Of a stretch of DNA of 64,000 nt, positions 15,607-39,791 are shown one piece after another. Source of the stretch: Nitrosospira multiformis (GTDB taxonomy: Bacteria > Pseudomonadota > Gammaproteobacteria > Burkholderiales > Nitrosomonadaceae); NCBI RefSeq assembly GCF_003050865.1, contig NZ_QAOK01000020.1, positions 1 to 64,000 on the forward strand, read 5' to 3'. The notes below the pieces were generated by a model that was not told where the DNA came from, made no database searches, and was given only the letters and a program-made list of their open reading frames with translations. A program made the translations under genes and the position numbers. Each line of letters begins with the position of its first letter. The first letter of the stretch is position 1.

Positions 15607-17181
15607 TTAGCGGGATCCAAAATGCTTTGATTGGGTTGTCTTCTTGACCGTATATATTTGATAGGCAGGGTTTGGCGAATCGGGCAGCATTTCGAAGTTA
15701 TCCAAGATGTATCTATGAATTAGGGCATGTGTATTGTGGAAACGTAACTCCTCCCGTCCATCAAGGGGGAAATCGAATATCAGGATAAAACCCGGGTTTG
15801 CCACCTTGATCCGTTCAATTTCTAGCTGTTGAAAGCTTTCACTTCGCGAGAACAAGGCGTATATCTCCCACATAGGAGACTTTCTTTCGAACAGCGGATA
15901 AGCCCCCGGCCAGAAAGGAGTTGTGATGAAACTTTGACCATCGGGTGCATGTTTAGCAACCAGCTTCTTTAATAGAGCGATCTCACTTGCTGTGCGAGCA
16001 TCAACGCTCACTTCGGTGTCCGAAATTACGATGTTCACACATTGTTTGCTAGCCCGGCATTGCCAAGCGGGATGAAAATGCACCATCACTAACAAACTTG
16101 AACCACATAACACAAGTGCCAGCGGCCATTTGATCTTCGCTGGTTTTGTGGCCAGTAGCACCAGGCAACCGATTAATAGAGGAAAAATGCTTTTAGCAAG
16201 GTGACTTACATCGGCTCTGGAATAAGCATAATGTGCATAGGGCAGTGCCAAGAACGCAGCTGCAACCAACGCCGATGGAACAGCTCTCTTGTGAAACTTC
16301 TGCTGAGTAACCCATATGGTAGCAAGTATGCCAAAAACGACTATAGCAATGAAAAACAAACCAGCCAGCACCCCACGAATCGTCTTGCCCACAGATATGG
16401 AATCAAAATCCAAACGCCAAGGCCAAGGAACTGGTAGAGTAAGATTAGTTGCTTTAATTTCAAGGAAAAAGAGCAAACTTTCCCAGAAGGCGGAAGCAAA
16501 GCCTGGTACCAGCAATACCATGAGAAGTATCGGGACATAACCAATTGCTACCCCTATTGCCCACAGCATAGCTCGCTTGATAAATTCAGGCTTATCCGCT
16601 TGCCTGATGGTCAGCCATATCATAACCCCCAGGCTGCCCAAGACACCATACACACCATGGTTACGGCCAAAAACAGCTACCAAACCTACACATAGACCGG
16701 TGAAAAAGTAACGTCTCCTTGTAGGGTTCTGCACGAGGAAGGCCAATACTCCGACCAGCAGAATAGATAAGGAAATATCAAATAATTTGTGGCGCGGATA
16801 CATCCAGGCCACCAATGTGATGGTTGAAAGAAGTAAATAAGGAAAATTTGGCGTTCTTGCATTTCGAGCAATTAACAGTAGAGCGACGAATAATCCCATC
16901 ACCTGAAAAATTGCCACGCTGCCCCTTAAGGCCACTATGCCATTGTCTCCCCACAGACTCATAAGTGTAGCGGACCAGTAGTAACGGCCGGGGTCGTAGG
17001 ACATGAAATCGCGTATGGGCACCTCACCTAGCATCACACGTTGAACCCCATACCAAAGAAAACCTTCATCCCATAGTGAGAATCCTTTATGCCCCTGCCA
17101 TAGAAAAAGTGCGAACACAACAAGGCTGGAAAAAACCAGTATTTGAAAAACTGAAAGCTTATTTTCTTGGGGCTGATGCAT
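15607..17181 (-). CDS. Polytopic membrane protein, GT39/ArnT-like glycosyltransferase
   Basis: A 524-residue inner-membrane protein with about eleven helices in the first 370 residues and a soluble periplasmic C-terminal domain. The first periplasmic loop has LWDEGFLWYGVQRV and RDFMSYDPGRYYW, where GT-C enzymes such as ArnT and protein mannosyltransferases keep their catalytic Asp-Glu. Convergent to the GT2 gene, with 91 bp between stop codons. A lipid-linked sugar donor is likely, but the acceptor is unknown. Confidence 0.68.
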   Translation of the reverse strand: MHQPQENKLSVFQILVFSSLVVFALFLWQGHKGFSLWDEGFLWYGVQRVMLGEVPIRDFMSYDPGRYYWSATLMSLWGDNGIVALRGSVAIFQVMGLFVALLLIARNARTPNFPYLLLSTITLVAWMYPRHKLFDISLSILLVGVLAFLVQNPTRRRYFFTGLCVGLVAVFGRNHGVYGVLGSLGVMIWLTIRQADKPEFIKRAMLWAIGVAIGYVPILLMVLLVPGFASAFWESLLFFLEIKATNLTLPVPWPWRLDFDSISVGKTIRGVLAGLFFIAIVVFGILATIWVTQQKFHKRAVPSALVAAAFLALPYAHYAYSRADVSHLAKSIFPLLIGCLVLLATKPAKIKWPLALVLCGSSLLVMVHFHPAWQCRASKQCVNIVISDTEVSVDARTASEIALLKKLVAKHAPDGQSFITTPFWPGAYPLFERKSPMWEIYALFSRSESFQQLEIERIKVANPGFILIFDFPLDGREELRFHNTHALIHRYILDNFEMLPDSPNPAYQIYTVKKTTQSKHFGSR

Positions 17182-21246: not shown

Positions 21247-21684
21247 TCAGGTGGAAAGGCCGGTAATATCTGCCCTGTAAACGCTCCCTGAACTGAGCGC
21301 TACACCCATCTCATTTTTTACGACCAGCTTCAGGTAACGGCTGACAGGCAGCCCTTGCAGGCTGAAAAATTTTCGGTGCACGTTTGTGTCATTGCACGCC
21401 AATGTGCCGATCCAATGCAGGTCAGCCTCATTGGTGGCGTCGGTTCCGCTTTCCGGGCCACTCCCAAAATTCACATTATCGAGCGATAATTTTGCGAATA
21501 ATATGAGTTGGCGGCTACCGGTTGGAGTTCCGTTAGGATCGCATTCAACCTCTAAAGTAACGTCCAGCGGAATGGCAGATCCGAGATCAATGGCTGACGA
21601 AGTTATGTAGGCGCCGCTTGCCAGCGTTCCCAGACTGAGCACGGACGCGCTGCGCGCACCCTGCGCTTGGGTAAATGTTGCCAT
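21247..21684 (-). CDS. Phage structural protein, beta-rich, unknown
   Basis: A 145-residue soluble protein rich in Ser, Thr, Gly and Asn and predicted to be all beta. It has no signal peptide. The composition and its place between the tail genes suggest a minor virion or tail-attached protein. The start has GGAA upstream. No family recognised. Confidence 0.6.
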   Translation of the reverse strand: MATFTQAQGARSASVLSLGTLASGAYITSSAIDLGSAIPLDVTLEVECDPNGTPTGSRQLILFAKLSLDNVNFGSGPESGTDATNEADLHWIGTLACNDTNVHRKFFSLQGLPVSRYLKLVVKNEMGVALSSGSVYRADITGLST

Positions 21685-22260: not shown

Positions 22261-24297
22261 TTATGCCTGCTTCAATCCATCCATTGTTTCAGCCAGGACG
22301 ACGCTGTTTACCTTCACATTGCCAGATAGCACAAACTCGACGTTATCAGCCTTATAGCCGCCGGGGAGTCGAAACGCACGGCTATTCCTGACCTGTTTGA
22401 TAAACTTCAGCGCGCCATCGCTCCATAGTTGAAATTGCAGGGAATCCATGGATAAGAGAGGAATATCCTGTGTCGCATCGCCCCCAATCTCGTATTCACC
22501 AAGGCATGTATCTGCCAGTCCGTCGTTCATGGAATAAGAACTGATCAGTGTCTGGTTGGCAGCGATAGTCTCGTTATAGGAGGATTGTGCCGCTGCTCTT
22601 TCTTCTTCCGTCATTTCAAAATCGGCATCAATCTTCCCTGCACCATAATTAACTGGTGGCGCAGTAACGAACCATTTACTTTTCCACTCATAGAGAAGCT
22701 TGGTCCCCGTATCCCCTTCCCATTCGTAGATTTTCTTGTTTGTGGCGACGTAAAGCTTGCCGGTTATGGGATCTGTCCAGATGCAACTGATGTTCTGGTT
22801 GATTTTTGAAAAGGATGCGTTCTCCGCCTTATCGATCACGAACATGAGGGAGCTATCTCCAGCCGAATAGCCGCAGTAGTAGCGGTTATCGGCAGAGGTA
22901 GCGATAAAGGTGTCAGGATTCAGTTCGGACCACTCCTTCTGGGTAAACAGGTCTTTTGTGACAATATCGCTACTTGTCCCAATCATTACCATTCCCTGTG
23001 GAGCAGGATATCCAACGCCAAATGCAAAATTCGCCACCCCCCGCTTCGACATGCAAGGCCACGCTACCCCCAGCTTCTCCATTCCTCCACCCATGGTCGC
23101 AGGCTCAACCCCGGTAATGGTGAAAGGATTCCCCTTGGTCATGCCAACCAGTGTGGTACCCATGGCAGCGATCGCTACAATTTCCTGATCGTATGTCTGG
23201 CGATACGAGGTGGGCCAAGCATAAGGTTTGAACGGTTCTGAGAAAAGTACCTCATTACCCGTGAATCCTGCGGCAATTCCATTCGCAAGCATAACAATGC
23301 CTCTCATGTTGGCCGGGGACATTTCCCAGTTCGTGGAGGGCAATACTTCTCCTAATGCAACTACCGTATCAGGAACAGTATCACTGTAACTTTTCGTAAC
23401 CGCTGAAAGTGTTGCGACGTAGCGATACTCGCTCCCTGACGAAGTCGCGAGCGTCCGATAGATGCGCTTGTTCATCCCCCCGGTATTGTGTGGGGCCTGG
23501 CGCTTCCACTTCCCACCCCCAGCGTAGATCTGGTCTGTAGAAAGGGATATGACAACCTTTTTCGTTATCGGGTCTACGCTTATCAGGGTAAATAGACCGT
23601 TCAAGTCGGTCATGCCTGATACTGATTCAAACCTGATTTCCTCATGCGCTCTTAAGCCGAAGACGGTATCAAGGCTGATTTCCGCCTGGCCGGCAGCTGG
23701 AGAATTCTTGAAAACAGCAATAATTGCCCCGGAGTTGGGGGGGGCTGCGTCCAGATTTGAAATCATCCAGGTTGCGTCTATCTTTCCAGTGGTTACTATG
23801 GAAACGGGGGAAGGCTGCGACTCCTCCCCCCACCGCGTGACAAATGTGTAAACATAGGCCCGGGAAGTCACTACTCCGCTTCCACCTGACGCCATTACCA
23901 GTGGTTCGCTGACTGGGGGTGTAACGCCAAGTACGTAGCAGGTGGATGGATAAATCCCCGACCCGGTGGTCGCCATTTCAAAGTCAGAGGTGCGAGGCTC
24001 TCCGTCCCCTGTGTAGTAAAATTGCTGCGGTATATTCCCCGCAACAGGCGAGCGGGCTACATCTACATCCCGGCTCCAGGCCAGCCACTTCTCGTTTCCA
24101 TCCTTTTCGATCCTGAACATCGACCGGATCTCGCCATCTATCTGTGGAGAAAACACAAGTAGCGCCGCGTTTCTGGGTCGCAAATCTCCACCGGCAAGAT
24201 TACAATTGGTCGCTGTTTGCGCCTGATTCGAGCTGAGCAAATGCTTTGCCAGTCGTGGCACAAGGCCGGAAAATCCGGAAATCCTGAATGCGCTCAT
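22261..24297 (-). CDS. Large podophage tail/neck protein
   Basis: A 678-residue protein without membrane segments. It opens MSAFRISGFSGLVPRLAKHLL, an N-terminus seen in large structural proteins of BcepC6B/BPP-1-type podophages. The middle is a beta-rich, propeller-like region (TGVEPATMGGGM, YCGYSAGDSSLMFVID, ISCIWTDPITGKLYVATNKK) and the end is a beta domain. Probably a tail-tube or stabilisation protein joining the head to the receptor-binding proteins. Its ATG overlaps the stop of the lysozyme gene. Confidence 0.68.
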   Translation of the reverse strand: MSAFRISGFSGLVPRLAKHLLSSNQAQTATNCNLAGGDLRPRNAALLVFSPQIDGEIRSMFRIEKDGNEKWLAWSRDVDVARSPVAGNIPQQFYYTGDGEPRTSDFEMATTGSGIYPSTCYVLGVTPPVSEPLVMASGGSGVVTSRAYVYTFVTRWGEESQPSPVSIVTTGKIDATWMISNLDAAPPNSGAIIAVFKNSPAAGQAEISLDTVFGLRAHEEIRFESVSGMTDLNGLFTLISVDPITKKVVISLSTDQIYAGGGKWKRQAPHNTGGMNKRIYRTLATSSGSEYRYVATLSAVTKSYSDTVPDTVVALGEVLPSTNWEMSPANMRGIVMLANGIAAGFTGNEVLFSEPFKPYAWPTSYRQTYDQEIVAIAAMGTTLVGMTKGNPFTITGVEPATMGGGMEKLGVAWPCMSKRGVANFAFGVGYPAPQGMVMIGTSSDIVTKDLFTQKEWSELNPDTFIATSADNRYYCGYSAGDSSLMFVIDKAENASFSKINQNISCIWTDPITGKLYVATNKKIYEWEGDTGTKLLYEWKSKWFVTAPPVNYGAGKIDADFEMTEEERAAAQSSYNETIAANQTLISSYSMNDGLADTCLGEYEIGGDATQDIPLLSMDSLQFQLWSDGALKFIKQVRNSRAFRLPGGYKADNVEFVLSGNVKVNSVVLAETMDGLKQA

Positions 24298-24848
24298 TTC
24301 GCCAGATCTCCCATTCCGGAAGAACTATCATGCCTTAAACCAGTTCTTCGGCCCTCGCATAATGCCCGTTCCTCAGCACGCCTCTTCACGAGGCCTGGTA
24401 ATATTTTTTTGCGAGGGCCATATTTGAATGCCTCTATGCGCGCACACGCTTCCACATACCGTCCTGCATTGATCAGGTCGATAAGATTAGGGGGTTTTCC
24501 AGGTAATGCCCTTCGACAGAAAGCACCGACACCGATGTTATAAGCCAGGCTCACATACGCTTCATACTCGTGCTGATAGAGAGGCACGGTCACACAACGC
24601 CTGACTCCAGCGGCATAAACGCCCTCTATTTCGTCCAGCAGCCTGACCAAAGACCGCTCTGGCGTTGTCTTGTCTCCCATTTTCACACCCGCGGTCGTAC
24701 CAAACCCGATGGTGGGGACATCCCCGCGCACAGGGATATACGCCTCATCCTTATACCCCTCGTGCACCGCGATCCCAACCAGCGTTGATGCTGCCAACAC
24801 TAATAGCGCTACAGCGGACCTTCCCTGGTTAAACAATGGCTTGCTCAT
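24294..24848 (-). CDS. Phage lysozyme (GH24 endolysin), probable SAR type
   Basis: A 184-residue muramidase. Residues 12-28 form a weakly hydrophobic helix rich in Ala, Leu, Val and Thr, as in signal-arrest-release endolysins that reach the periplasm through Sec. The catalytic Glu is E30 (VHEGYKDEAY), with the RGDVPTIGFG motif (Asp43, Thr46) next and VSLAYNIGVGAFC further on. It cleaves the glycan strands of peptidoglycan at the end of the phage cycle. AAGGGA lies upstream of the start. The lipoprotein and membrane genes just upstream complete a lysis cassette. Confidence 0.88.
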   Translation of the reverse strand: MSKPLFNQGRSAVALLVLAASTLVGIAVHEGYKDEAYIPVRGDVPTIGFGTTAGVKMGDKTTPERSLVRLLDEIEGVYAAGVRRCVTVPLYQHEYEAYVSLAYNIGVGAFCRRALPGKPPNLIDLINAGRYVEACARIEAFKYGPRKKILPGLVKRRAEERALCEGRRTGLRHDSSSGMGDLAK

Positions 24849-26353: not shown

Positions 26354-26694
26354 ATCTCACCCTGCTCCGATAAACTGTTACCCTGGACCTTCCTGTTCGC
26401 CATGTGCGCTGCCACAAGCAGCACTCGTTGGGTTTTCTCGCTGTGCTTCACCATCTCATTACGGAAGGATTCTGTAGCTGCGGTGCCCTTGCGGGATTCG
26501 TTGGCTGCGTTGATCATCAGTGTGGGCAGCCAGCCTATAGCGCATCCCCATGAATCGGTTTCCTGTCCCGTGTTGACATTTACGCCGCGAACCTGCACAT
26601 ACCATGGACATCGATAGAGGACAGGTTTGCCGTCTTCGAGCTTAAGCTCTTCACACTTTGCTCCCAGGGGACAATTCGCTGTACGTATTTCCAT
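26344..26694 (-). CDS. Conserved phage protein with cysteine motifs
   Basis: A 116-residue protein. The ATG at 26694 overlaps the stop of the tail-fibre gene. It has four cysteines in CPLGAKC, YRCPWYV and SWGCAIGWLP, which could bind a metal, and a helical C-terminal half with TAATESFRNEM. The same pattern recurs in podophage tail regions. Function unknown. Confidence 0.62.
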   Translation of the reverse strand: MEIRTANCPLGAKCEELKLEDGKPVLYRCPWYVQVRGVNVNTGQETDSWGCAIGWLPTLMINAANESRKGTAATESFRNEMVKHSEKTQRVLLVAAHMANRKVQGNSLSEQGEICD

Positions 26695-27590
26695 CAATCC
26701 TTACTCGCTATGATTATGTCGATGTATTGCACGGCAAGGTTGATGGCCGTGCCGGTAAAAATATGACTATGTGAGCCGCCGCCGCCTGTGCCGGCATCCG
26801 TAATTGGCATTCCGGTAATAACTCCCCCCCCTCCACCGCTGGGGTTGGCTCCTCCACCTGATGTTCCATACACACTCAAACTATGGGTATGCGCCGGTAT
26901 CTGCGCCGAGGTCAATGTCGTCGCGCTGTTCCAGCCGGAAACCGCCTGCGACGTGAAGGCTGACGTGAAGGCGGCTGAACCGCCCGAACCACCACCGGTG
27001 CTTCCAACAACACGCAGTGCCTTATTATGGTGTGTCGTGACCTGAGTCCAGCCTGACGGTGCCGTCGCCTGAAAAAATGACATAACAGTTCCGGGAGGAA
27101 TGAGGCTGGCGGGCGCAGCGCCCAGTGTCGCTCTCGCAACCGCCGCATTATCATCATCCAGTAAGCCCCGGATATAGGAGCTCATATTCGCCAATGCGAC
27201 TGTGCCCGGGCCAGTGAAATACGCCATCTTATCGGCTGACGTTTCCAGGGCGCCAAGCGCCTGGAGATTTGGATTTGCAAGGGATTCCTGCAAGGCGATG
27301 CTGGTTACACCGGCAACGAAGTAATCGCCTGCTGCCCAGGTACGGGGAGCCGTACCATCCAGTCCTCGTCCTCCTTGCGCGATGATTAAGCTGTCGGTCG
27401 TACGTGCCTCGATTTTCACAATTTCCCGGTTGCCGGAAGCATTCTTGAATATGCCATAGAAATAATCGCCGATGCCTGGCGATGGAAAGAGAACGCCCTT
27501 TCCGGCCTCCACTGTGAAGCTCAATCCCGTTGTCCCACTGGGAGCGGAACTGATGATGGCCTTGCCAAAATTCGAGAACTTGAGTCCCAT
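26694..27590 (-). CDS. Phage tail fibre / collar protein
   Basis: A 298-residue tail fibre protein. The N-terminal 100 residues are beta-rich (RIDS-type connector). The C-terminal part has the tail-collar signature: PPGTVMSFFQATAPSGWTQV at about 164-183, ALRVVGSTGGGSGG, then the QIPAHTHSL motif and a Gly-rich loop (GGGANPSGGGGG), followed by GGSHSHIF and AVQYIDIIIA at the end. The histidine-rich tip of this family binds metal and contacts receptors. It is the likely host-recognition protein along with the LamG protein. Confidence 0.85.
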   Translation of the reverse strand: MGLKFSNFGKAIISSAPSGTTGLSFTVEAGKGVLFPSPGIGDYFYGIFKNASGNREIVKIEARTTDSLIIAQGGRGLDGTAPRTWAAGDYFVAGVTSIALQESLANPNLQALGALETSADKMAYFTGPGTVALANMSSYIRGLLDDDNAAVARATLGAAPASLIPPGTVMSFFQATAPSGWTQVTTHHNKALRVVGSTGGGSGGSAAFTSAFTSQAVSGWNSATTLTSAQIPAHTHSLSVYGTSGGGANPSGGGGGVITGMPITDAGTGGGGSHSHIFTGTAINLAVQYIDIIIASKD

Positions 27591-27593
27591 GTT

Positions 27594-28217
27594 TTATCCT
27601 CGTCTCAGGATTGCTGTCTGGAATGGCGCTCTGGTATAGCCTCGGGCTACTCTCATGCCTGCTGCCGCCGTCTTGATAATGAACTGTTGCTGGTGATAGG
27701 CGGCTAGCTGGATATTGGTATAGGGCTTTTTAGGTGACAGCATTAGCCGCGCCATAGCGCCGTGAATGATGGCTTCGCGGTATTCGTGGAATAGCGCGTC
27801 ATCAATCCCTGTACTGAGGGCCGAAGGTTTTAGCGCAACCGTTACTGCTAATACCCCGTTACTATCCGGAGTTGGAACCAGGGTCAGCGAAAATGGACCG
27901 CCAAGAACATATCGTGGCTTGCCAGTTTGGCGGCGCAAGTTTTTGATCTTGATGTTCTTCTCGCAGGCAAAAGACTCTATTTCTTCTCCATCCAGCACTG
28001 CATGTATGATGGCATGAACTGCCGCGCCTTCAGGGGGGGAGTAGGCATATTCCGCAATGCCTCCCATTACGAAGACAGGCAGATGCTCGGTTTGCCAGGC
28101 CAGGGATTGCTCACAGAACGCTATAGAGGATTGACGCAATGCACTGTCGGCTGCAGCAGCTGGGCATCCAGGCAGGTCTGGCATAAGCAGATCATAAAAA
28201 TCGCTCCAGAATTTCAT
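27594..28217 (-). CDS. Phage head-tail connector-like protein
   Basis: A 207-residue soluble protein opening MKFWSDFYDLLMPDLPGCP. Mixed alpha and beta with no recognised catalytic motif. It overlaps its upstream neighbour by 4 bases. The place between the capsid genes and the tail fibre, and the size, fit a connector or tail adaptor protein; I cannot name the family with certainty. Confidence 0.58.
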   Translation of the reverse strand: MKFWSDFYDLLMPDLPGCPAAAADSALRQSSIAFCEQSLAWQTEHLPVFVMGGIAEYAYSPPEGAAVHAIIHAVLDGEEIESFACEKNIKIKNLRRQTGKPRYVLGGPFSLTLVPTPDSNGVLAVTVALKPSALSTGIDDALFHEYREAIIHGAMARLMLSPKKPYTNIQLAAYHQQQFIIKTAAAGMRVARGYTRAPFQTAILRRG

Positions 28218-29510: not shown

Positions 29511-30782
29511 TTAAAGTGGTACAACCGAGTCAACCGCAATCACACCAAAGTCGGTGGGTACCTTGAAACCTGTTCCATCGTCGATAGAGAAACGGGTTTT
29601 CGCTTTGCCACAAACCTTCTCACCCATTACTTCCAGGTTACTTTCAAAGTTATACCAATGCTCCTTCCATCCGAACTGCATCCCGCTGACCCTGGTTTTG
29701 CCATAAGCGACACCCAATGCTTGTGCGCCCAATAATAATCCGCGCTCGATCGCATAGCCGGCTGTCAATGCTCCATTGACAGCTTGATCGGTTTCTGCCG
29801 CAGTTGCCGCGTTTGCTGCGGTAACTATCTTCGTGTTTTCGCCAGGCATAAAGCGGATTGCACGCTCATTCTTGATCACCAGAATGCCATTCCACATTCC
29901 AACCTCCCCGGCAAACAACGGATGGCGCTCGTCAAAATATGCCGCCCGATTGATGGCGTTCTGCTGGAATGCACGTAACGAACCTTCGGTCAAAAGGAGC
30001 GAGTACTGATTGGGGGTGGCGAGAAATACCCACATCTTGGAAGTCTGCGCAGCCCGATCCCCTGCCAGTTTGACGGATTGCAGCGGCTGATCCATGTCAT
30101 CGAGCCTCTTGCGCAGCAGATCCAGATGCGACACGCGCAGGGCGTCCGTTGAAACGATGGATCCCAACTGCTGCCCTCCTGAGGTCAGATTGGCGCCATT
30201 CACTACAAAATGGCGATTAAAGGTAGGCGCCTTCACGGGGTTCACCATTATGGAACCGAAGTTCGGGGCGCTTTGAAGCGGTACTGTCCAGTCCGAACCG
30301 GTTTGCGATCCGCGCGCCCCAGCGAGATGTACCAGTGTTTCCTGGGCGTCGAGACGGGGGAAATAACCTGATAATTGCGCCAGGGCAATTTCACGCAACT
30401 GATGTTTGGTGCGCTGCTGCGACATGCTGCCACCTGCATCGATGACCTTACTGGATAGATCGATCTTGATCTCCATCGAGGAAAACGAAAGCGCACTGCC
30501 CCGTCCTTCACGATTGACATCACCCATCAGCGGTTCGCCACCCACGGTATCGACCAGATCGAGCGATACGACATCGCCCGCACTCTTCATCAAATTATCG
30601 ATTCGCACAATGGGCATCCCCGGATTTGTTTGACCGGCAATTTTCTGCATTGCTACCGAAGGCTCGACCGGACCGACAAGGCTGTCAATCGCTGTGGATC
30701 CTTTGAGCGTGTTGGCGAAGAGCGCCGCGCTATAATGTTTGACTGCCAGTGAACTTCCGCTTGCTACGTTTGTTTCAGCCAT
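29511..30782 (-). CDS. Major capsid protein, N4-gp56 family
   Basis: A 423-residue capsid protein of the N4-gp56 family. Marks are the N-terminal AVKHYSAALFANTLKGS, QTNPGMPIVRIDNL, VSLDLVDTVGGEPLMGD and GMQFGWKEHWYNFES near the C-terminus. It forms the head shell with the HK97 fold, assembled on the scaffold encoded just upstream. Length is usual for the family. Confidence 0.88.
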   Translation of the reverse strand: MAETNVASGSSLAVKHYSAALFANTLKGSTAIDSLVGPVEPSVAMQKIAGQTNPGMPIVRIDNLMKSAGDVVSLDLVDTVGGEPLMGDVNREGRGSALSFSSMEIKIDLSSKVIDAGGSMSQQRTKHQLREIALAQLSGYFPRLDAQETLVHLAGARGSQTGSDWTVPLQSAPNFGSIMVNPVKAPTFNRHFVVNGANLTSGGQQLGSIVSTDALRVSHLDLLRKRLDDMDQPLQSVKLAGDRAAQTSKMWVFLATPNQYSLLLTEGSLRAFQQNAINRAAYFDERHPLFAGEVGMWNGILVIKNERAIRFMPGENTKIVTAANAATAAETDQAVNGALTAGYAIERGLLLGAQALGVAYGKTRVSGMQFGWKEHWYNFESNLEVMGEKVCGKAKTRFSIDDGTGFKVPTDFGVIAVDSVVPL

Positions 30783-30796
30783 TTAATCAATAATCC

Positions 30797-31759
30797 TTAA
30801 TCAAGTTCGGCTCTCAAGGCTGCCGCCTGATGCGTGGGCATCTTCATCAACTTCTGAGCAAGTTCAAAAGGACTCAGATTCTCAAGCTGCTCACGTTCAG
30901 AGGCTGGATTTGCTCCACCCTGAATATCCGATAGAGTTACAGGCTTCCTCACCGGGGCTGCCTCAAGCTTGGCTTGCACATCCGCTTTCATCATTCCCGG
31001 ATCGGACTTCTTTTTTGGAGTAGAGGCTTCCGGTATAATCGCCCTGACACGCCGGACAACCTCCTGGAAACGTTCCGCATAAGGCTTTCCCGCCCACTTC
31101 GTATTGGTTCTCAGAATTTCGTCCTGCTTCAGCGCTTCTTCCCAGGCGTCAGCGTCATTACTTTCCCAATGCACGAGATCAGGGTTATTGTCTTTTGCCT
31201 CAGCGACTTGCTCTGCAGTACTCTGCTGGCTTATGCGCTCGGATTCCTCCTTTTCACGCTCCAGTTCCCGCAGCGTTTGCTCCAGCCTTTCGCCTTGCTT
31301 CCGACTCCCCTCGAGCAGCGCACTGAGTACCTGATGAAGTTGAGGCATCTCTTCCTTCAGAGCCTCAAGGTGCGTCTTGAATTTTTCATCCAGCACAACG
31401 GGCTCTGCTTCCTTTGCTTCCTCTTTCCGCATCAGGAATTCGTCGAGTTTGCCTTGCGTGGACTTTAGCTGCTCGCGCAGCGCTGAGTTCTCTACCCGCA
31501 GTTCCTTGTGCTTCTTGTAGGGAATAGTTCCCTTGCCGCTCTTGTTCAAAACGACAGGCTCATCTTCACCTTCATCGTCACTCACTTTGCTGAACGCATC
31601 GTCTTTCACATCAGAGCTGGATTTCTCCGTTCCTTCTTCCTCAGGTACTTCCTGTCCGCCTAGAATTTCCGCAAGCTTGCCCGGATCGCTTTCCAATATC
31701 TCGATTTGTTCCGGTGTAAGATTTGCGATTTGCTCATCCGTAAGCTGATCCACTTCCAT
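30797..31759 (-). CDS. Capsid scaffolding-like protein
   Basis: A 320-residue acidic, mostly coiled-coil protein. It starts MEVDQLTDEQIANLTPEQIE, has a long heptad region (about 85-200, including RKQGERLEQTLRELEREKEE) and a basic stretch (TPKKKSD) before the C-terminus. Position directly before the major capsid gene and this composition are typical of scaffolds that guide capsid assembly and then leave. GGAG lies upstream of the start, which follows two terminators. Confidence 0.78.
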   Translation of the reverse strand: MEVDQLTDEQIANLTPEQIEILESDPGKLAEILGGQEVPEEEGTEKSSSDVKDDAFSKVSDDEGEDEPVVLNKSGKGTIPYKKHKELRVENSALREQLKSTQGKLDEFLMRKEEAKEAEPVVLDEKFKTHLEALKEEMPQLHQVLSALLEGSRKQGERLEQTLRELEREKEESERISQQSTAEQVAEAKDNNPDLVHWESNDADAWEEALKQDEILRTNTKWAGKPYAERFQEVVRRVRAIIPEASTPKKKSDPGMMKADVQAKLEAAPVRKPVTLSDIQGGANPASEREQLENLSPFELAQKLMKMPTHQAAALRAELD

Positions 31760-31959: not shown

Positions 31960-33186
31960 TCAAATAGTCTTTAACCCCGTACGTGTGTAGTATCCAACTC
32001 GACCATCAGTAAAAATGCAAGCGGACAAAATCTCCCCACTCTGGAGTAAATTACAAATACGGTTCCGATATGTGACAACTGATCTGTCTTTAATGCCCAT
32101 TGATGCAATATCATATTGATAGTAAATTGTTCGAGCAATACCCTTGGCCGCTTGGATAAGCAGGCTGCGTCCGATAAATAGGTCCCCCGCTGTGCCGCTC
32201 ATCAGGGCTATGTCAGGACTGATAGGTGCACTTTCCGTATCCCAAGTTTCTTTCCCGGCAATTCCTGCAGTCGCTTTCGCCGCGTCGATCCGATCTATCA
32301 TTCCGGGCAACTTTGTTATATCGTTTCCTCCGATGTACAAGTGTACGCCAACGATGTCGATCCAGTCTTTCATGGTTGTTGAACCGTCACCCGTTGGCGC
32401 AGCCATCATTCCGAGGAAATACGTTTCAGCGCTGCTACCTGCTGTTGCAGACCACACTGTTAAAGCCGGGCTGATAATCTTCGCTGTCGGATCAACCGCC
32501 TTGATTGCTTGATTCGCTCGCCGCGTCATTTCCGCTAACTTAGCAAACGTACCTGAGAAGAAGAAGGCCTTATTTGACAAACCCTCCGCGGTGAGCCCGG
32601 TTCCATCGTTGTAATAGTTCGGCTCGTTCCAGACCTCGTAATACTTGATCTTGCCCTTGTAACGCTCTGCAATCTTGGAGCAAAACCTGTCCCACCTGGA
32701 CATATCTGCCGGTTCAGCCTGCAAACCTAGATTGTACGGGCCGTAAGCTCCCTGTTCATTCGGCCTTGCTGATGCCCATTGTGGCGTCCCGTATAACGTA
32801 AAAAGAATATCCCGTCCTGCAGCATGATGGATATTTACCCAATCGTCGAGATCGCTGAAATCCCATACGTTGTCGTATGGTTCAATTTTTTGCCACCGGG
32901 CTTTACCACCCGCCATATCATGCGAGCGAACAGTATAGAATGAAGCGTCCGTTGCAATATCATTGGATCGCTTATATACATGCATGCCAAAGAACCGATC
33001 GCTCACTGATACCGGAGATGTCGATAAAAGCTTGATCGGCAGATTAGGTATTGCCAGCGCGTTCGAGTCAGGATTAGTGAAATCCTTATCCAGAAAAAAT
33101 GTAGCCCGATTGCCGATAAAATGTCCGCCATGATGTATAGCAGGGTAGACAGCTGATCTGCCAGAAGTCACTATATAATTTGCCAT
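31960..33186 (-). CDS. Phage-borne clan-A glycoside hydrolase (GH39/GH5-like)
   Basis: A 408-residue glycosidase with a TIM-barrel fold. Residues 1-65 look like a virion-attachment segment. The catalytic acid/base is Glu188 in YYEVWNEPN, and the likely nucleophile is Glu318 in ETWDTESAP; LYGTPQWAS and VHLYIGG are further clan-A marks. Enzymes of this type cut beta-glycans such as xylan or surface polysaccharides. It lies between portal and scaffold genes, after a small beta-rich protein, and is bounded downstream by a double terminator, so the pair looks like an inserted cargo unit. It may be a capsule depolymerase on the virion; the substrate is unknown. Confidence 0.78.
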   Translation of the reverse strand: MANYIVTSGRSAVYPAIHHGGHFIGNRATFFLDKDFTNPDSNALAIPNLPIKLLSTSPVSVSDRFFGMHVYKRSNDIATDASFYTVRSHDMAGGKARWQKIEPYDNVWDFSDLDDWVNIHHAAGRDILFTLYGTPQWASARPNEQGAYGPYNLGLQAEPADMSRWDRFCSKIAERYKGKIKYYEVWNEPNYYNDGTGLTAEGLSNKAFFFSGTFAKLAEMTRRANQAIKAVDPTAKIISPALTVWSATAGSSAETYFLGMMAAPTGDGSTTMKDWIDIVGVHLYIGGNDITKLPGMIDRIDAAKATAGIAGKETWDTESAPISPDIALMSGTAGDLFIGRSLLIQAAKGIARTIYYQYDIASMGIKDRSVVTYRNRICNLLQSGEILSACIFTDGRVGYYTRTGLKTI

Positions 33187-34018: not shown

Positions 34019-35788
34019 CTATGCATTACCACCGGTACTACTCATCCGCCGCAACTGCTCAGCCAGTTCGTAACGATTAGGCACGTCAGATAGCTCCAGC
34101 ATTACAGGGTATAAAATCGCTTGATACGTGGGTGGTGCTGCTTGCACAATCTGGCTGAACGCTTGCAACTGCTGTGCCCGGAAGCTGGGTGTGGCGGGGA
34201 CATCTTCCAGTACAACCTTAACCTGAGCCGTGGCAATGTCGTTCTCTACGATCGGGCCACCGGCAGTCATCACCGAATGATTAAAATAAATGAGTTTTTG
34301 CTTTGCGCCTTGTCTGATTGTGACGACCTTCTGACTGCCCAACATATCCTGTTTGATCAGCGCAAGAAGTTGTTGACCAACAAGTCGGCGAGCATGGCGA
34401 AAATTATCATTGGGCTCCGCCAACACGGTCGAGCCCTGTTCCACCAGACTGTTGATCGCCACACCGCTGCTTGCTGAGGTATGTGCTCCCAGCATAGTAC
34501 GATAGATTCCCCCCACTTCTTCAATCCTGCGTTTGCGTTCCTGCACGAGCTGAAATACCTGGGTAGCAAGCTGATGCTCACGTATCACCCTGAAGCCGCT
34601 GGCATTTCTTCGCTGAGAGTTGAGGATGGTCATCGAGCGCAGACTGCTTATATTATTGGCAACCTCCTGATAAGAATTCTGGCTGAGATCGAGCGCATCA
34701 TTGTCCACTTCAACTTTTACCGAATTGAGGACTTCGTAGAGAAGAATATCCAGATCGATTATCTGATCCTGGGGTCCCCGCATATCACGAATCAATCCAT
34801 AGGGAGCTCGACTCCTATCCTTGCGAAAGCACCAGAATGGAATATATGGAAAATCTGAATGAGGTAATGGGCTCGGAACATCCATGAGCTTATGCGGCCC
34901 AAGCCAAATTGAAACCCGCATCCGGCTGAGAACCGACTTCTGGACCTGCACGAGACCTTGGGCAACCGCTGCCTGATGATAGGGATTATCCTCGCTGTAT
35001 TCGATTACCTTCCCATCAGGCAATACCAGGACGTAGGCATCCTCGAAATGCCGATACCATAATTCGGAAAGCCTGACCATACCCGAGTTTCGGTTCAGGT
35101 AATCTTCCTGGTTGCGGCTCCATGCCTGCTCGATTTCATAAGCTCTCGCCAAGCCGTTGTCATACCCCTCGTATACATCCGTGTCGTTCCACCCCTTCCA
35201 GCTATTTGCAATGATTTCCGCCCTGTCCGGGAACATAAGTGCAGCCTGAAGCTGGTCTATCCACTTATCGCGTCGCAAATATCGAGCATCGGACAGATCC
35301 GGCTCTCTTGAACTCCAGTCCCAGTAAATTTCGTTACGATGCACCTCCCGGACACGATACGGATATTTGAGCGCATCAAATTCCCGGGATATTTCCACCC
35401 ACCCGATACCTGCACGGATCATGCTGGAATACGCATCTGACATGGCCCGGTCTGCCCGTGACTCGGTCTCGGCCTCCTTGATTTTTGCGGAAAGACCTTC
35501 CGCAATCTCTGCCTGGCTCTCATCATCCGCCGTCACCCTGTAATCCGTTCGGCTACGCGCTTCCAACCCCAATACTGCATTGATCGTCGGCTTGATCAGA
35601 TTGGAGTCCTGGGGAGGAATACCTGCCATCTTCAGGCGCTCGATCACCTCCGCGCTGGTCTGCGCGCCGTCGTAATAATCACAGTCCGTGTCCGAGTCCG
35701 CTCGCCACTTCGGTTGATCCCGAATATCGCGGCATATTTTGTCGTAAGCTTCAATCGAAATATCTGCCGTAACACCTGCCTCAGTCAT
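34019..35788 (-). CDS. Portal protein, P22-like
   Basis: I take the ATG at 35788 (ATGA overlap with the terminase stop); a TTG nine bases upstream is the other option. The 589-residue product matches P22-type portals: YYDGAQTSAEVIERLKMAG near the start, LEARSRTDYRVTADDE, a central wing with VREVHRNEIYWDWSSREPD, FWCFRKDRSRAPYGLIRDM and a helical C-terminal stem. The portal forms the twelve-subunit channel through which DNA is packed and ejected. Confidence 0.9.
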   Translation of the reverse strand: MTEAGVTADISIEAYDKICRDIRDQPKWRADSDTDCDYYDGAQTSAEVIERLKMAGIPPQDSNLIKPTINAVLGLEARSRTDYRVTADDESQAEIAEGLSAKIKEAETESRADRAMSDAYSSMIRAGIGWVEISREFDALKYPYRVREVHRNEIYWDWSSREPDLSDARYLRRDKWIDQLQAALMFPDRAEIIANSWKGWNDTDVYEGYDNGLARAYEIEQAWSRNQEDYLNRNSGMVRLSELWYRHFEDAYVLVLPDGKVIEYSEDNPYHQAAVAQGLVQVQKSVLSRMRVSIWLGPHKLMDVPSPLPHSDFPYIPFWCFRKDRSRAPYGLIRDMRGPQDQIIDLDILLYEVLNSVKVEVDNDALDLSQNSYQEVANNISSLRSMTILNSQRRNASGFRVIREHQLATQVFQLVQERKRRIEEVGGIYRTMLGAHTSASSGVAINSLVEQGSTVLAEPNDNFRHARRLVGQQLLALIKQDMLGSQKVVTIRQGAKQKLIYFNHSVMTAGGPIVENDIATAQVKVVLEDVPATPSFRAQQLQAFSQIVQAAPPTYQAILYPVMLELSDVPNRYELAEQLRRMSSTGGNA

Positions 35789-37038
35789 GCCCGCCAACCT
35801 TTCATATTAATGCCTCTCGCACTCACAGCCGGTTTATCCTCCTCGATTGCCACAGCAAAATAGCGAAAGGCATCGGCTGCATGGCTGTGATAATCATGTA
35901 AGGGTCTTGCGCTGAATTGACCGGAATCGGGATCGACATCAAATCGATAATGCCTCAGGCTTTGCAGGCCTTCTGCACAATTCAGCTCATCAAAATAGCA
36001 ACGTGGAAAGATAGTTCTCGCCGCGTTGATACCATCATGAATGGAGAGATTTGGCACGATTCTTACTTGTCGCCCCGCTGCAAGCATAATTTCCTCCACG
36101 CTACGTCCGGTTGCCAACGTCCGAGCCCTGGCATCGTGTGGTAACCAATCTGTACTGTACATATACCTTTTGTTTTGCAGCACTCCGATATAATGCTGAA
36201 TTGGCATCTGACTATTACTGTAGTAATCGATCAACCTGAGTTCGTTACCAACGGTCTGCGCAAACCAGATGCTGGTGTTGTCGGCCCAGCCGAGATCAAA
36301 GAAAGTGTGTACCGGCTTTGCCTCATCATATGGCACACTCCGTATCCTTCCTTCTTCCTGTGCCAATCGCAGCTCCTTCGAATAAACCGCTCCGTCCAAC
36401 GTTACCCTACAATTCCCTTCCCATACGTTCTGGTAAGTATCCGGGTCACGCGCTTTCAGTTCATCCTTTTCCCGTCGCAGGGTCTCCGGAAACCATGGAT
36501 TGTCATTCCAATTGATTTTTACTACGACAGCGCCAACAGGGGGATTGACTGCAAACCGCTGATGAGTCTCATCGGTATTGAGCTCAGGGTTGTAAGTCAC
36601 CCAGATTTCCGACCCCTCTTTACGAATAGTCGGAATAAGCGTATCCCAACTTGTCTTGCTCACTGTCTGTGCTTCTTCCACCCAGACCCTGTCCACACCC
36701 TCGAACGACTTGATCCTGGTTACGTTGCTACGCAGACCGGCAAAGATAAACTCGGAACCGTTTGCTCCATGGATAACGCTGTTTTGCACTTCGTAAAATG
36801 AGCTTAAACCGATGGCCTCTATCTGAGCTTTCAATAAATGATGCACAGATTCGACGATAGAATTCTGAAATTCTCTCGCACACAAGATGCGCAATGGGGT
36901 TGCAGCCGCCTGAATCAATAATGCCCTGCCAACACTCCAGCTTTTTGCACCCCCTCTTCCTCCATATAAGATCTTGTAGCGTGCCGGTTTAAACAGAAAT
37001 CTGAGCTTTGACGGAAATTCAGCTCTATGGGGAGTCAT
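35785..37038 (-). CDS. terL: Terminase large subunit
   Basis: A 417-residue packaging motor. The ATPase half has Walker A GGRGGAKS (residues 26-33) and Walker B VWVEEA (118-123). The nuclease half starts with FFDLGWADN (Asp248) and ends with the metal-binding HDYHSHAADAFRY. The PBSX-type family fits. It pumps the genome into the head with the small subunit and portal. Length is usual. Both ends touch neighbouring genes. Confidence 0.94.
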   Translation of the reverse strand: MTPHRAEFPSKLRFLFKPARYKILYGGRGGAKSWSVGRALLIQAAATPLRILCAREFQNSIVESVHHLLKAQIEAIGLSSFYEVQNSVIHGANGSEFIFAGLRSNVTRIKSFEGVDRVWVEEAQTVSKTSWDTLIPTIRKEGSEIWVTYNPELNTDETHQRFAVNPPVGAVVVKINWNDNPWFPETLRREKDELKARDPDTYQNVWEGNCRVTLDGAVYSKELRLAQEEGRIRSVPYDEAKPVHTFFDLGWADNTSIWFAQTVGNELRLIDYYSNSQMPIQHYIGVLQNKRYMYSTDWLPHDARARTLATGRSVEEIMLAAGRQVRIVPNLSIHDGINAARTIFPRCYFDELNCAEGLQSLRHYRFDVDPDSGQFSARPLHDYHSHAADAFRYFAVAIEEDKPAVSARGINMKGWRA

Positions 37039-37055: not shown

Positions 37056-37631
37056 TTACGATGATACATTTGGCTCATTACCTCTATCTTCCGGAGCGAC
37101 AAAAGCTATCGTGATGTTATGCACTACGGATTTTCTGGCATCACCGCCTTCGTGTGTGACAGGTAATTTATCGCCATATTTTCTTGGCGCCAGTCGTGCG
37201 GCATACCACTTGCGCGCATCGATGCGCAATTGCGCGCGCGCAATAACCTCCCGGTTTATGACCTCCCGTCCCTTCTCATCGACATACGTATCTCTTGATC
37301 CCTCATCCGAAATTTCGATGATTTCCTCCGCGTAGGCATCCACGCAAAGCTCCTTGGCGCGTTGATATTGGCGCATAAGTTCTTCGTCACTCGCCAGCCA
37401 GTTCCATAAAACCCTCTGACTGATACCAACCTCCACGCACATCGCGCGAGCCGACTTTCCAAGTGAAATGCCAGCAAAGATCGCGTCAACTACCTCACGC
37501 TTCTTTATGGCTCGACTGCTCTTTTTCGGACTCGCAGGCTCTACGCTTATTGCACCCTTTTCTGTTTCCTCGCTGGATATTTCACTCTCGAATTTCCACA
37601 TGTCCGGCTTTATCAGCGCTTCCCTTTCCAT
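37056..37631 (-). CDS. Terminase small subunit
   Basis: A 191-residue DNA-binding protein. Residues about 45-100 hold a helix-turn-helix (EVVDAIFAGISLGKSARAM, VGISQRVLWNWLASD) of the phage terminase small subunit type, followed by the long helix AIxARAQLRIDARKWYA seen in this family. It recognises the packaging site on phage DNA. It lies 17 bp upstream of the large subunit. Confidence 0.85.
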   Translation of the reverse strand: MEREALIKPDMWKFESEISSEETEKGAISVEPASPKKSSRAIKKREVVDAIFAGISLGKSARAMCVEVGISQRVLWNWLASDEELMRQYQRAKELCVDAYAEEIIEISDEGSRDTYVDEKGREVINREVIARAQLRIDARKWYAARLAPRKYGDKLPVTHEGGDARKSVVHNITIAFVAPEDRGNEPNVSS

Positions 37632-37637
37632 TTCCTT

Positions 37638-37997
37638 TTACAGACTCCTCATACCCTTCTTGCATCCTCTCAATGCAGCAAGTAATTTGACCTCACATGC
37701 CGATCTTTCTTCTATTTCCGTACGCAGCGCTCTATTGATCGTCAGAGGGTCGTCCTTGATTGACACGCGATCAATCGCATAGGCCGACTTGCACTCGGAT
37801 GGAGTATCAACGAGACAAGGGACAGCAACAGGTTTCTCGATCACCTGAGTCTGAATCACCGGCTTCCCCGCACAACCGGCCAATAAGGTCGCAAAAACCA
37901 GCGCCAAGTGGGCTAGCAAGCAGCGATTGAATCGCGAGGAGGCGCTATGGGGATACACGGAGTTGAATCTAATCGGTCTGATGGCGGCTCTGCACAT
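37638..37997 (-). CDS. Outer-membrane spanin (Rz1-like lipoprotein)
   Basis: A 119-residue product whose lipobox LLAGC puts the lipidated Cys at about residue 42; the mature part is about 78 residues (CAGKPVIQTQVIEKPVAVPC). The open frame begins inside the Rz-like gene, overlapping by 28 bases in another frame, the classic Rz/Rz1 arrangement. A GTG at 37958 would give a shorter signal. Together with the inner-membrane partner it would fuse the two membranes at lysis. Confidence 0.72.
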   Translation of the reverse strand: MCRAAIRPIRFNSVYPHSASSRFNRCLLAHLALVFATLLAGCAGKPVIQTQVIEKPVAVPCLVDTPSECKSAYAIDRVSIKDDPLTINRALRTEIEERSACEVKLLAALRGCKKGMRSL

Positions 37998-38403
37998 ACT
38001 CTATCTGCTCTCTCGTGATTGCCTCATACTGATGCTCGGGTGCTACTGATGGAAGGGTGCGTATTTTCTTTGCATGACTCGTGTGCTTTGCTGCAGCAGC
38101 AGTCGCATGACGCATCGCCTCGGCTGCCGTTTTTTCTCTCTCAGCCGCCACTTCTGTCAACGTGCTCATCGCTGTCCTCACCGACTGGATATCCAATGCG
38201 CACTTTTCGTTTGCTGCCGACAATACTGCATTCTGGGAACTCAAGCGCTGCATCTGCGATTCAGCTCGCCAATCACTGACAAAGTATCCACCGGTAAAAG
38301 CAAGCGCTGCAAAAATGGCAACCAGGATTACTGTAATCCTTGGTCTGATTGCCTCAATTACTGGCTTGATGGCACCAATCATTGATTTGATTGCCGTAAT
38401 CAT
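37969..38403 (-). CDS. Inner-membrane spanin (Rz-like)
   Basis: The ATG at 38403 gives a 144-residue product (MITAIKSMIGAIKPVIEAI). One membrane helix (about 25-45, ITVILVAIFAALAFTGG) is followed by a periplasmic coiled coil (MQRLSSQNAVLSAANEKCA, then a Thr/Glu/Ala-rich helix). Together with the overlapping Rz1-like lipoprotein gene this fits an i-spanin/o-spanin pair. It is the first gene of the prophage late transcript. Confidence 0.7.
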   Translation of the reverse strand: MITAIKSMIGAIKPVIEAIRPRITVILVAIFAALAFTGGYFVSDWRAESQMQRLSSQNAVLSAANEKCALDIQSVRTAMSTLTEVAAEREKTAAEAMRHATAAAAKHTSHAKKIRTLPSVAPEHQYEAITREQIEYVQSRHQTD

Positions 38404-38456: not shown

Positions 38457-38480
38457 AAAAAAACCCGCTCGAGGCGGGTT
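38457..38480 (-). terminator. Terminator just upstream of prophage Rz-like gene
   Basis: AACCCGC (38462-38468) pairs with GCGGGTT (38474-38480) around TCGAG; on the minus strand the stem is followed by a run of seven T. It lies about 55 bases before the start of the Rz-like gene and downstream of the leader. Confidence 0.85.
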
Positions 38481-38890
38481 GGCTATTACTGCAAATACCG
38501 GATACGGGCTTAGAATTAACTGAACGTGTGAACAGCTGATCTAGAGCTGCCCTCCATCCTTTGTCTTCCATTCGCTCCGATCTGAGTTGCAGGATCGAGG
38601 TGATGAACGAGACAGATGATGAGCGAGACTTAAGGGATGCTTATCGAAGCACCGCGTCTATCGACTGTTTCAGCTCCGTCTTCTGACATCAATAACGAAA
38701 CTGTAAGATGCTAAGCAGGCATCGCACACCGGTTCAATTATTTTCTGACACCATAGAAGGTACAGTTTCTTGCAAACATTTTTATCTTCCGCCAAAGTTT
38801 TATTACCTCTGCTATTACAAGTAAAAAATAGCTTACTTGCCGATCTTTCTTATTTGATACTATGCGTGGGTATCAGGCTTCAACAGACAA

Positions 38891-38913
38891 TAAAAAACCC
38901 GCACTAGACGGGT
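38891..38913 (-). terminator. Terminator at the end of the late leader
   Basis: On the minus strand ACCCG (38913-38909) pairs with CGGGT (38901-38897) around a 7-base loop, followed by TTTTTTATTG. It lies about 65-85 bases after the predicted start of transcription. Confidence 0.72.
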
Positions 38914-38977
38914 GGATGTACAACCGCTACAGCGGAGTTTTTAGTTTTGTGATCGTGCACGACAATCCACAATATGG
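38891..38977 (-). ncRNA. Predicted short leader RNA or sRNA upstream of late genes
   Basis: A transcript from the consensus promoter at 39011-38984 to the terminator at 38891-38913 would be about 87 nt. It carries the palindrome TCGTGCACGA (38953-38962), a small hairpin CCGCT-AC-AGCGG (38924-38935) and the terminator stem. It contains no reading frame of useful length. It could be a free sRNA or the attenuated leader of the late operon. Confidence 0.45.
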
Positions 38978-38983
38978 AGATGA

Positions 38984-39011
38984 ATTATACACCGTTACCG
39001 GCTATTGTCAA
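38984..39011 (-). promoter_or_regulatory. Consensus sigma70 promoter of prophage late module
   Basis: TTGACA (39011-39006) and TATAAT (38989-38984) on the minus strand are both perfect matches to consensus, with a 16-bp spacer. It points toward the Rz-like gene and the terminase. Confidence 0.82.
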
Positions 39012-39112: not shown

Positions 39113-39194
39113 TTAAAGGTTGTTGGGTCGTCCACTAAATACCATCCTATCTCCTGCTTCCAAAGTCTTATCCATACTTTTTAAGCGAAATTCT

Positions 39195-39791
39195 GTGATA
39201 AAAAAACTCGTAACGCTTCTTATATTTGGTCTGCCATATTCAAATAACGCAACAGCACAAGAGTTGGGGTCGGGAGAGATGGATGCACCAGAAGGCGCTG
39301 TTCTGATAGCCGGACCCACAGCGGAATTGACGCAAAGTGTCCCTGGCAGCTCTTTTTACCCGTCCTTTTATTCCCCAACACCCGTAAATCAGCCTGGCGT
39401 ATTCGCACAAGCTCATGGTGGCACCCCGCTCAACACGCATTTGTTTGGCCGGTCAATCATTGTGCTGCCCATGCAGCCTTATATTGATCCGGTATCCGGC
39501 TTTCAATACCCCGGCAGCTACATGCCGCCCGGGACACCTCTTCACGGATTCAACGGCTATATCATTTGTAATCCCCCCAATCTGAACAGAGATGCAGTTG
39601 CAGAAGCAGCGGCAGGAACAGGTGCCCAACGAGTAATCAAGATCACCTCAACGCGATCCCCCTCCATACCGGGGTATTCAGGACCATGCCCTATCTACAC
39701 GATAAATGGCGAGCTTCCATCCCAGAAAAGTCATAGCACAATTTTGCCTCGTAGAACGCCACCTACGCGACAACAAGGGGAGCATCAATGA
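39195..39791 (+). CDS. Exported proline/glycine-rich protein
   Basis: I choose the GTG at 39195 because it gives a proper signal peptide (MIKKLVTLLIFGLPYSNNATAQ) and AAGCGA stands upstream; the open frame extends further up to a TTG. The 198-residue product is rich in Pro, Gly, Ser and Tyr in the middle (SFYPSFYSPTPVNQPG), has two Cys (YIICNPP, GPCPIYTING) and a basic end. Unknown family; possibly a periplasmic or surface protein. It directly adjoins the prophage boundary and has its own promoter. Confidence 0.6.
   Translation: MIKKLVTLLIFGLPYSNNATAQELGSGEMDAPEGAVLIAGPTAELTQSVPGSSFYPSFYSPTPVNQPGVFAQAHGGTPLNTHLFGRSIIVLPMQPYIDPVSGFQYPGSYMPPGTPLHGFNGYIICNPPNLNRDAVAEAAAGTGAQRVIKITSTRSPSIPGYSGPCPIYTINGELPSQKSHSTILPRRTPPTRQQGEHQ

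Follow-up and report, generated by a model that had tools for sequence, protein, structure and literature searches.

A late promoter, probably served by a Q-class antiterminator, ahead of a probably domesticated cluster of P22-like phage genes in Nitrosospira

A stretch of 64,000 nucleotides of the Nitrosospira multiformis chromosome (NZ_QAOK01000020.1, positions 1 to 64,000; hereafter the window) carries a cluster of phage structural and lysis genes on the minus strand (17248-38403). Directly upstream of the first gene of this cluster lies a region (38457-39011) in which a consensus promoter is followed by two intrinsic terminators. Very likely, this region holds the late promoter through which a Q-class antiterminator runs a P22-like phage cluster that has been domesticated and fixed in Nitrosospira. 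The genes at the locus, the conservation of the control region and the cluster, and the candidate antiterminator are described below.

The late promoter (38984-39011, minus strand) consists of the -35 hexamer TTGACA (39011-39006), a 16-nucleotide spacer and the -10 hexamer TATAAT (38989-38984), and transcription is predicted to start at about 38977 on the minus strand. Between 37 and 41 kb of the window, TTGACA-16-TATAAT is the sole promoter-like site scoring at least 9 of 12. Scans of the single sequence gave no clear excess over chance, either for promoter-like sites (1 found; shuffle mean 5.7, standard deviation 2.4) or for terminator-like sites (5 found; shuffle mean 3.2, standard deviation 1.9), and the reality of the promoter and terminators is settled by their conservation across the genus and not by these counts. 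The genus is taken here as 23 genomes, Nitrosospira and Nitrosovibrio together, the window's own genome being G000. With the cluster located first, the promoter was readable in 21 of them, the contigs of G002 and G018 ending before it. The perfect promoter claimed in a first-pass annotation of this DNA was borne out: TTGACA is present in 21/21 readable copies, a count that is partly by construction because the copies were located with a pattern requiring TTGACA-16-TA(T/C)AAT, and the -10 is TATAAT in 19 copies and TACAAT in two. An independent scan (at least 10/12) recovered the same site in 20/21 copies; in G014 the scan covered 2.6 kb, which did not reach the site, and G018 yielded a different 10-of-12 site. 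The pattern is single in the 20-40 kb stretch around every copy (64 kb for the window). When 101 related genomes were searched at the DNA level, 20 matched, 17 of them in the genus, and the other three matches spanned only 24-33 bases. The promoter and leader alone were matched in 15/23 genus genomes at the BLAST threshold.

A gapless alignment on the -35 revealed a conserved block that runs from about 10 nucleotides before the -35 to about 20 nucleotides past the predicted start and then fades towards background (consensus TTGACA-N6-(N)GTAACGcTg-TATAAT-N-CG-NN-TCCATATtGTGgATT). The conserved element is therefore promoter DNA with the first transcribed bases, and not a long structured RNA. Two parts of the block stand out. 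The spacer core GTAACG (38993-38998, minus strand) is a candidate antiterminator-binding element; offsets 13, 16 and 17 from the -35 are invariant in 21/21 copies, and GGTA is found at the matching offset in the late promoters that follow Q in the two closest prophage relatives (L184 and, judged by eye, L185). The -10-like hexamer TATTGT (38969-38974, minus strand; about +4 to +9) is a candidate sigma-dependent pause element, of which positions 1, 2, 5 and 6 (T, A, G, T) are invariant in 21/21 copies while positions 3 and 4 vary. A pattern combining promoter and hexamer (at most one mismatch) has exactly one match in each of 20/23 genomes, always at the late promoter; its reversed control gave 3 matches overall.

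The first terminator (38897-38913, minus strand; ACCCGTCTAGTGCGGGT+TTTTTATT) resembles lambda tR', with a stem that begins at about +65. The second (38462-38480, minus strand; AACCCGCCTCGAGCGGGTT+TTTTTATG) lies directly before the first late gene and had also been foreseen in the first-pass annotation, as had a hairpin-rich leader with a terminator close to the promoter. That terminator held up across the genus: one is found within +1 to +200 in 20/21 copies, G017 being the sole copy without, and 200 shuffles of each copy gave a mean of 0.445 copies and a maximum of 3. The hairpin-rich leader proved less informative, given that conservation fades from about 20 nucleotides past the start. Two to four terminators are present in 15/21 copies, and their sequences differ between groups, having been turned over.

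The genes that would be transcribed from this promoter, all on the minus strand, begin with an Rz-like spanin (37969-38403; phrog_739, E 3e-5), whose start at 38403 was chosen by inspection. A small gene overlapping it (37638-37997) matches phrog_3580 and, by its position, may encode an Rz1-like protein. The small terminase subunit (37056-37631; phrog_1482, E 5e-36), the large terminase subunit (35785-37038; PF04466) and a P22-like portal (34019-35797; PF16510) follow, then a phrog_479 protein (30797-31759) whose position suggests a scaffold, the major capsid protein (29511-30782; PF13252, E 7e-157), an endolysin (24294-24848; PF00959) and an internal virion protein (22261-24297; phrog_511). 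On the plus strand, a divergent gene (39120-39791) encoding a protein that appears from its sequence to be secreted marks the chromosomal site. The cluster is flanked by non-phage genes: a thiamine-pyrophosphate enzyme, a hemerythrin-like protein, a flavin mononucleotide reductase and a pirin on one side, and a glycosyltransferase and an O-antigen ligase on the other. In the subset of open reading frames (ORFs) scanned, neither an integrase nor a replication gene was matched.

The cluster is a fixed feature of the genus. A portal homologue is present in 23/23 genomes, and the capsid in 22/23, G002 being without it; records named Nitrosospira or Nitrosovibrio carry portals that are 76-90% identical. 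Outside the genus, the capsid was found in 1/102 family genomes (G118, 41%). In this genome, the sole one of its kind among the family genomes searched outside the genus, relatives of the portal (43%) and the capsid (41%) are present (G118:C1:297011-337010; L119, L120), but the large terminase of the window found no counterpart. The order of 18 core genes is the same in 21/21 copies, G012 being left out as its contig ends inside the cluster and G002 uncounted. The divergent gene lies within 109-841 nucleotides of the -35 in 20/21 site copies, with only partial matches in G016 and G004 and one stop in G006; it was not found near the promoter in G017 or in three second copies of the structural module (0/3). 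The frames of the portal, both terminases, the capsid, the phrog_479 protein and the endolysin are uninterrupted over at least 80% of their window length in 21/21 copies, while the frames of three genes on the tail side are reduced in length in three or four of them. Patchy genes are few: 15607-17181 (3/21), 21247-21684 (11/21) and 31960-33186 (5/21). The last of these, between the portal and phrog_479 genes, has a weak glycosyl-hydrolase match below Pfam's cut-off and marks a swap-in site inside the otherwise fixed cluster, while 15607-17181, the cluster's last gene, shows variability at the end of the operon.

The history of the cluster follows that of the host. In 21 genomes, a tree of four late genes has 14/18 splits in common with the rpoB tree (maximum 3 when labels were shuffled), the distances correlate at r 0.94, and neither the late-gene tree nor the tree of the candidate antiterminator shows a strongly supported conflict with rpoB. 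In the rpoB tree, the window's genome groups with G003, G007 and G008. Ratios of nonsynonymous to synonymous substitution (dN/dS) in ten pairs are 0.00-0.07 for the capsid and 0.04-0.14 for the large terminase subunit, apart from the pair G015/G022, in which the terminase value of 0.59 comes from too little divergence to judge. Between the window's genome and its group, the values are 0.03-0.04 for the capsid (3 pairs), 0.07-0.14 for the large terminase subunit (4 pairs), 0.03-0.12 for the candidate antiterminator (4 pairs) and 0.03-0.05 for rpoB. Selection is uneven, with dN/dS up to 0.34 in 27594-28217 and 0.37 in 26694-27590 (0.43 in the near-identical G015/G022); for the phrog_479 gene it is 0.49 in one pair, which includes a fragment at a contig end. 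Judged from sequence, this combination of gene order, intact frames, low dN/dS and an rpoB-like tree is the pattern of a domesticated cluster and not of a recent prophage. As for a gene transfer agent (GTA), the capsid and terminase genes form a clade-fixed cluster inherited with the chromosome, and the structural genes are intact and under purifying selection. The first-pass annotation had not recognised the late genes as a cluster that is fixed in the host and passed on vertically.

The candidate antiterminator was traced from a fuller prophage in G009, in which a 165-amino-acid protein is encoded directly before the late promoter and two terminators. Its counterpart, here called the Q-like protein, is present in 22/23 genus genomes (61-73% identity), the one without being G002, which is 80% complete. 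The window genome's own gene encodes 174 amino acids and lies on a contig other than the window's (G000:C9:56567-57088). Outside the genus, a match was found in 1/102 family genomes (29% identity). In the 15 genomes with the Q-like gene and the late cluster on one contig, the former is upstream on the same strand in 15/15, at a distance of 49.6-133.7 kb. Its tree has 15/18 splits in common with that of rpoB in 21 genomes (shuffle maximum 2; r 0.90) and 13/18 with that of the late genes (r 0.93). Pfam and PHROGs do not name the protein, which matched one PHROG without an assigned function (E 0.17). An AlphaFold2 model of a close homologue (predicted local distance difference test score 83.8) gave only two matches at E<=0.001 when compared with the PDB by Foldseek, both of them AlpA complexes; the top eight in VIA-align comprise AlpA (15.5 and 14.6), lambda Q (9.9) and Q21 (6.9-5.4). 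The ring plus helix-turn-helix fold common to AlpA, Q21 and lambda Q is present in the predicted fold. A sequence-profile search of the PDB at E<=1 returned two unrelated chains only and neither Q nor AlpA; with no detectable sequence homology to AlpA, the Q-like protein is therefore not filed as a member of the AlpA family. The candidate factor is thus identified by position, distribution, co-inheritance and predicted fold, and we infer that it acts at the window's late promoter.

The Q-like gene is found in viral contigs as well. Of 19 viral loci found with it, 12 were inspected by eye, and in seven of these a promoter, a -10-like hexamer and a terminator come directly after Q; five have no such unit there. 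A scoring script placed that promoter among the top three for six of the seven. Shortened Q-like proteins lacking the PIVKxSSVNxM segment are encoded in the viral contigs L188 and L189 and in G004 (G004:C24:345633, L166); no late promoter follows Q in L188 and L189, and these proteins are perhaps inactive or have another role. A comparison with 50,697 phage records yielded a match neither for the DNA of the control region nor for the Q-like protein. The first-pass annotation had proposed antiterminator control like that of lambda pR'-tR', with a factor that, if present, would be elsewhere or new. The Q-class predicted fold, the linkage in 7/12 viral loci and the -10-like element support the former proposal, and a Q-like family at a separate, genus-wide locus the latter.

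The surroundings of the Q-like gene were followed in eight contexts (L173-L175, L178-L182) of the 22 genomes with Q. A divergent repressor is found near the Q-like gene in 8/8, its G006 form matching HTH_3, and in G003, G007 and G008, further genomes from the group of the window's genome, the repressor start is also within 1.5 kb of Q. In 8/8 contexts, a tandem array of three ACAAG-N5-CTTG repeats, with spacings of 24 and 19-20 bases, adjoins the start of the repressor, and in all eight the repeats overlap a rightward promoter-like sequence, TTGAC(A/T/G) followed by AATAAT (6 contexts), AACAAT (G000) or TAATAT (G017). This three-repeat arrangement resembles lambda OR. Each context has one or two further matches to the repeat outside the triple (8/8). 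The repressor matched helix-turn-helix domains only and no self-cleaving peptidase domain, and hence gives no sign of being tied directly to the SOS response. Genes with DUF1376 and DUF6475 domains lie between repressor and Q in 6/8 contexts and are gone from G000 and G012, where repressor and Q are kept. Homologues of the DUF6475 gene (74%) and, over its C-terminal third, of the DUF1376 gene (70%) occur in the prophage G020b; the remote locus therefore looks like the early region of an ancestral phage. A small cysteine-rich ORF precedes Q in 6/8 contexts; in the window's genome (G000:C9, L173, about 9765-10002) its stop overlaps the Q start.

How would such a circuit work? RNA polymerase would start at about 38977 and pause at the -10-like TATTGT (about +4 to +9). 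By default it would stop at the promoter-proximal terminators, so that the capsid and lysis genes would be off. Once bound at the conserved spacer element, the Q-class antiterminator would be loaded onto the paused polymerase and constrict its RNA exit channel in the manner of AlpA and Q21, so that the polymerase would run through the terminators and along the 21-kb operon. At the three tandem operator-like repeats, the divergent CI-type repressor would in turn keep the antiterminator operon silent. We infer the order of these events and the inducing signal.

Work on AlpA (PMC7969949, PMC9371919) shows that this factor depends on an element between the -35 and -10, on a -10-like sequence at the very beginning of the transcribed region, in which the conserved A and T matter, and on a downstream terminator, and that it acts as a nozzle where the RNA leaves the polymerase. 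The element of lambda Q also lies between the -35 and -10. The alp system of Pseudomonas aeruginosa is also chromosomal and phage-derived, with a repressor that holds off the antiterminator; its target promoters have an element in the spacer, a -10-like sequence for pausing and terminators close to the promoter, and AlpA is the best fold match. It differs in that its characterised role concerns lysis genes and not a capsid cluster, in its spacer element, in a repressor (AlpR) that cleaves itself, whereas only helix-turn-helix matches were found here, and in that the PDB search found no sequence similarity between AlpA and the Q-like protein. Lambda Q with pR'-tR' and phage 21 Q, which show no sequence similarity to the Q-like protein in the PDB search, differ in that the Q-like gene and the late operon are 50-134 kb apart in the 15 measurable genomes and that no replicating phage surrounds the Nitrosospira late genes. 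In the Caulobacter GTA, which is under GafY/GafZ control, a separately encoded regulator with a sigma-like helix-turn-helix is proposed to bind between the -35 and -10 of the GTA promoter, its only target, and enables transcription beyond a terminator, with the repressor RogA above it (PMC11150451). A separate regulator, terminator passage and a repressor on top would be common to both systems; there, however, the terminator comes after the first gene, and here an AlpA-like factor is paired with a P22-like cluster. P22-like podoviruses share the portal type, as well as a capsid and terminase of phage families, but here inheritance resembles that of a host gene and no integrase is present among the scanned ORFs.

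Could the cluster instead be an ordinary or decaying prophage without host function, its Q and early genes simply located elsewhere? Several observations point that way and complicate a simple story of domestication. Second copies of the structural module lie outside the conserved site in G009 (G009:C24:347469-387468; L111, L112), G020 (G020:C2:1058477-1098476; L117, L118) and G005 (G005:C38; L103). By inspection, those of G009 and G020 have early-type genes (helicase- or methyltransferase-like and repressor-like) and resemble fuller prophages, as the G005 copy perhaps does. A portal tree, made by a quick method, gives no clean clade of site copies, since G005b, G009b, G020b and viral contigs interleave near its base, and the cluster may have exchanged genes with phages deep in its history. 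G002 groups with G005b and L268/L269, so its copy may be a prophage. At the remote locus, early-type genes (DUF1376 and DUF6475) have survived in 6/8 contexts. Against a prophage speak the same neighbour gene in 20/21 copies, the trees matching rpoB, core frames intact in 21/21 copies, the lack of an integrase among the scanned ORFs and the 47 kb between the two loci in G012, which have no match to the proteins of the two prophages. The low dN/dS points the same way, but would also be expected of an active phage. A prophage without host function is accordingly judged unlikely.

Other readings concern the control region itself. The start site carries an imperfect palindrome, TCCATATTGTGGA, which could be the operator of a repressor, the terminators being mere insulation against leaky starts. 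The palindrome is highly conserved, and in G010 both arms carry paired changes (TTCATATTGTGAA); in G005, G004 and G011, however, its symmetry is broken while hexamer positions 1, 2, 5 and 6 are kept. The repeats of the remote repressor (ACAAG-N5-CTTG) differ from it in sequence, neither motif search yielded a regulon, and an operator leaves unexplained both the terminators in 20/21 copies and the genus-wide gene with a Q fold, which makes this account rather improbable. As a genome-wide regulon the palindrome was rejected: ATNCATATNGTGNAT gave 22 matches in 13/23 genomes, some at the late promoter, and the longer promoter-plus-hexamer pattern matched the late promoter only. The compact promoter and terminator would also suit a gene for a small RNA of about 80-100 nucleotides that merely adjoins the late genes. 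No Rfam match was found in the window, so such an RNA would have to be new; the absent match and the conservation profile led to rejection of an Rfam-type RNA. Conservation fades about 20 nucleotides past the start, the terminators are often tandem and changed in sequence and position, and in the 20 genomes where the pattern is found it precedes the capsid cluster and nothing else. A small RNA is thus highly improbable, and the RNA acting by itself that the first-pass annotation had offered as an option is unsupported by the same profile.

On the sequence evidence, these observations are best explained by a lambda-like circuit, split between two loci, in control of a capsid cluster that has been domesticated. 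A GTA is a plausible product. The wider proposal is about evenly balanced: that all Nitrosospira carry a P22-derived GTA, of a lineage without description in the literature searched, and that a complete lambda-style circuit, from a three-operator repressor through a new Q family of AlpA fold to a paused, terminated late promoter, has been split into two loci and kept throughout the history of the genus. Among the matches listed, the cluster was undescribed in titles found on Nitrosospira prophages, virus-like particles or GTAs and on betaproteobacterial GTAs, in a search whose coverage left out most subscription journals. IMG/VR contains many of the clusters as viral contigs (43 loci by portal), so their DNA is already catalogued, as virus. 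A study of viruses of soil nitrifiers mentions proviruses of ammonia-oxidising bacteria and, in the text available, not gene transfer (PMC11849493). In N. multiformis, stress-induced prophage induction followed by lysis has been reported (Choi et al. 2010, cited in PMC6728921), and particles induced in this way could stem from the present cluster.

The Q-like proteins would make up a family without a name in Pfam or PHROGs. If the proposed circuit is correct, GTA-like domestication would extend to a P22-type phage in a nitrifier, and GafZ would not be the only factor recruited to bring antitermination to such an element, an AlpA-like one having probably been recruited too. In soil, much of the ammonia-oxidising community consists of Nitrosospira as one of its major members. 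For these bacteria, a conserved, switchable capsid cluster would be, in a way unconsidered in the literature searched, a route of gene exchange and of lysis of a subset of cells.
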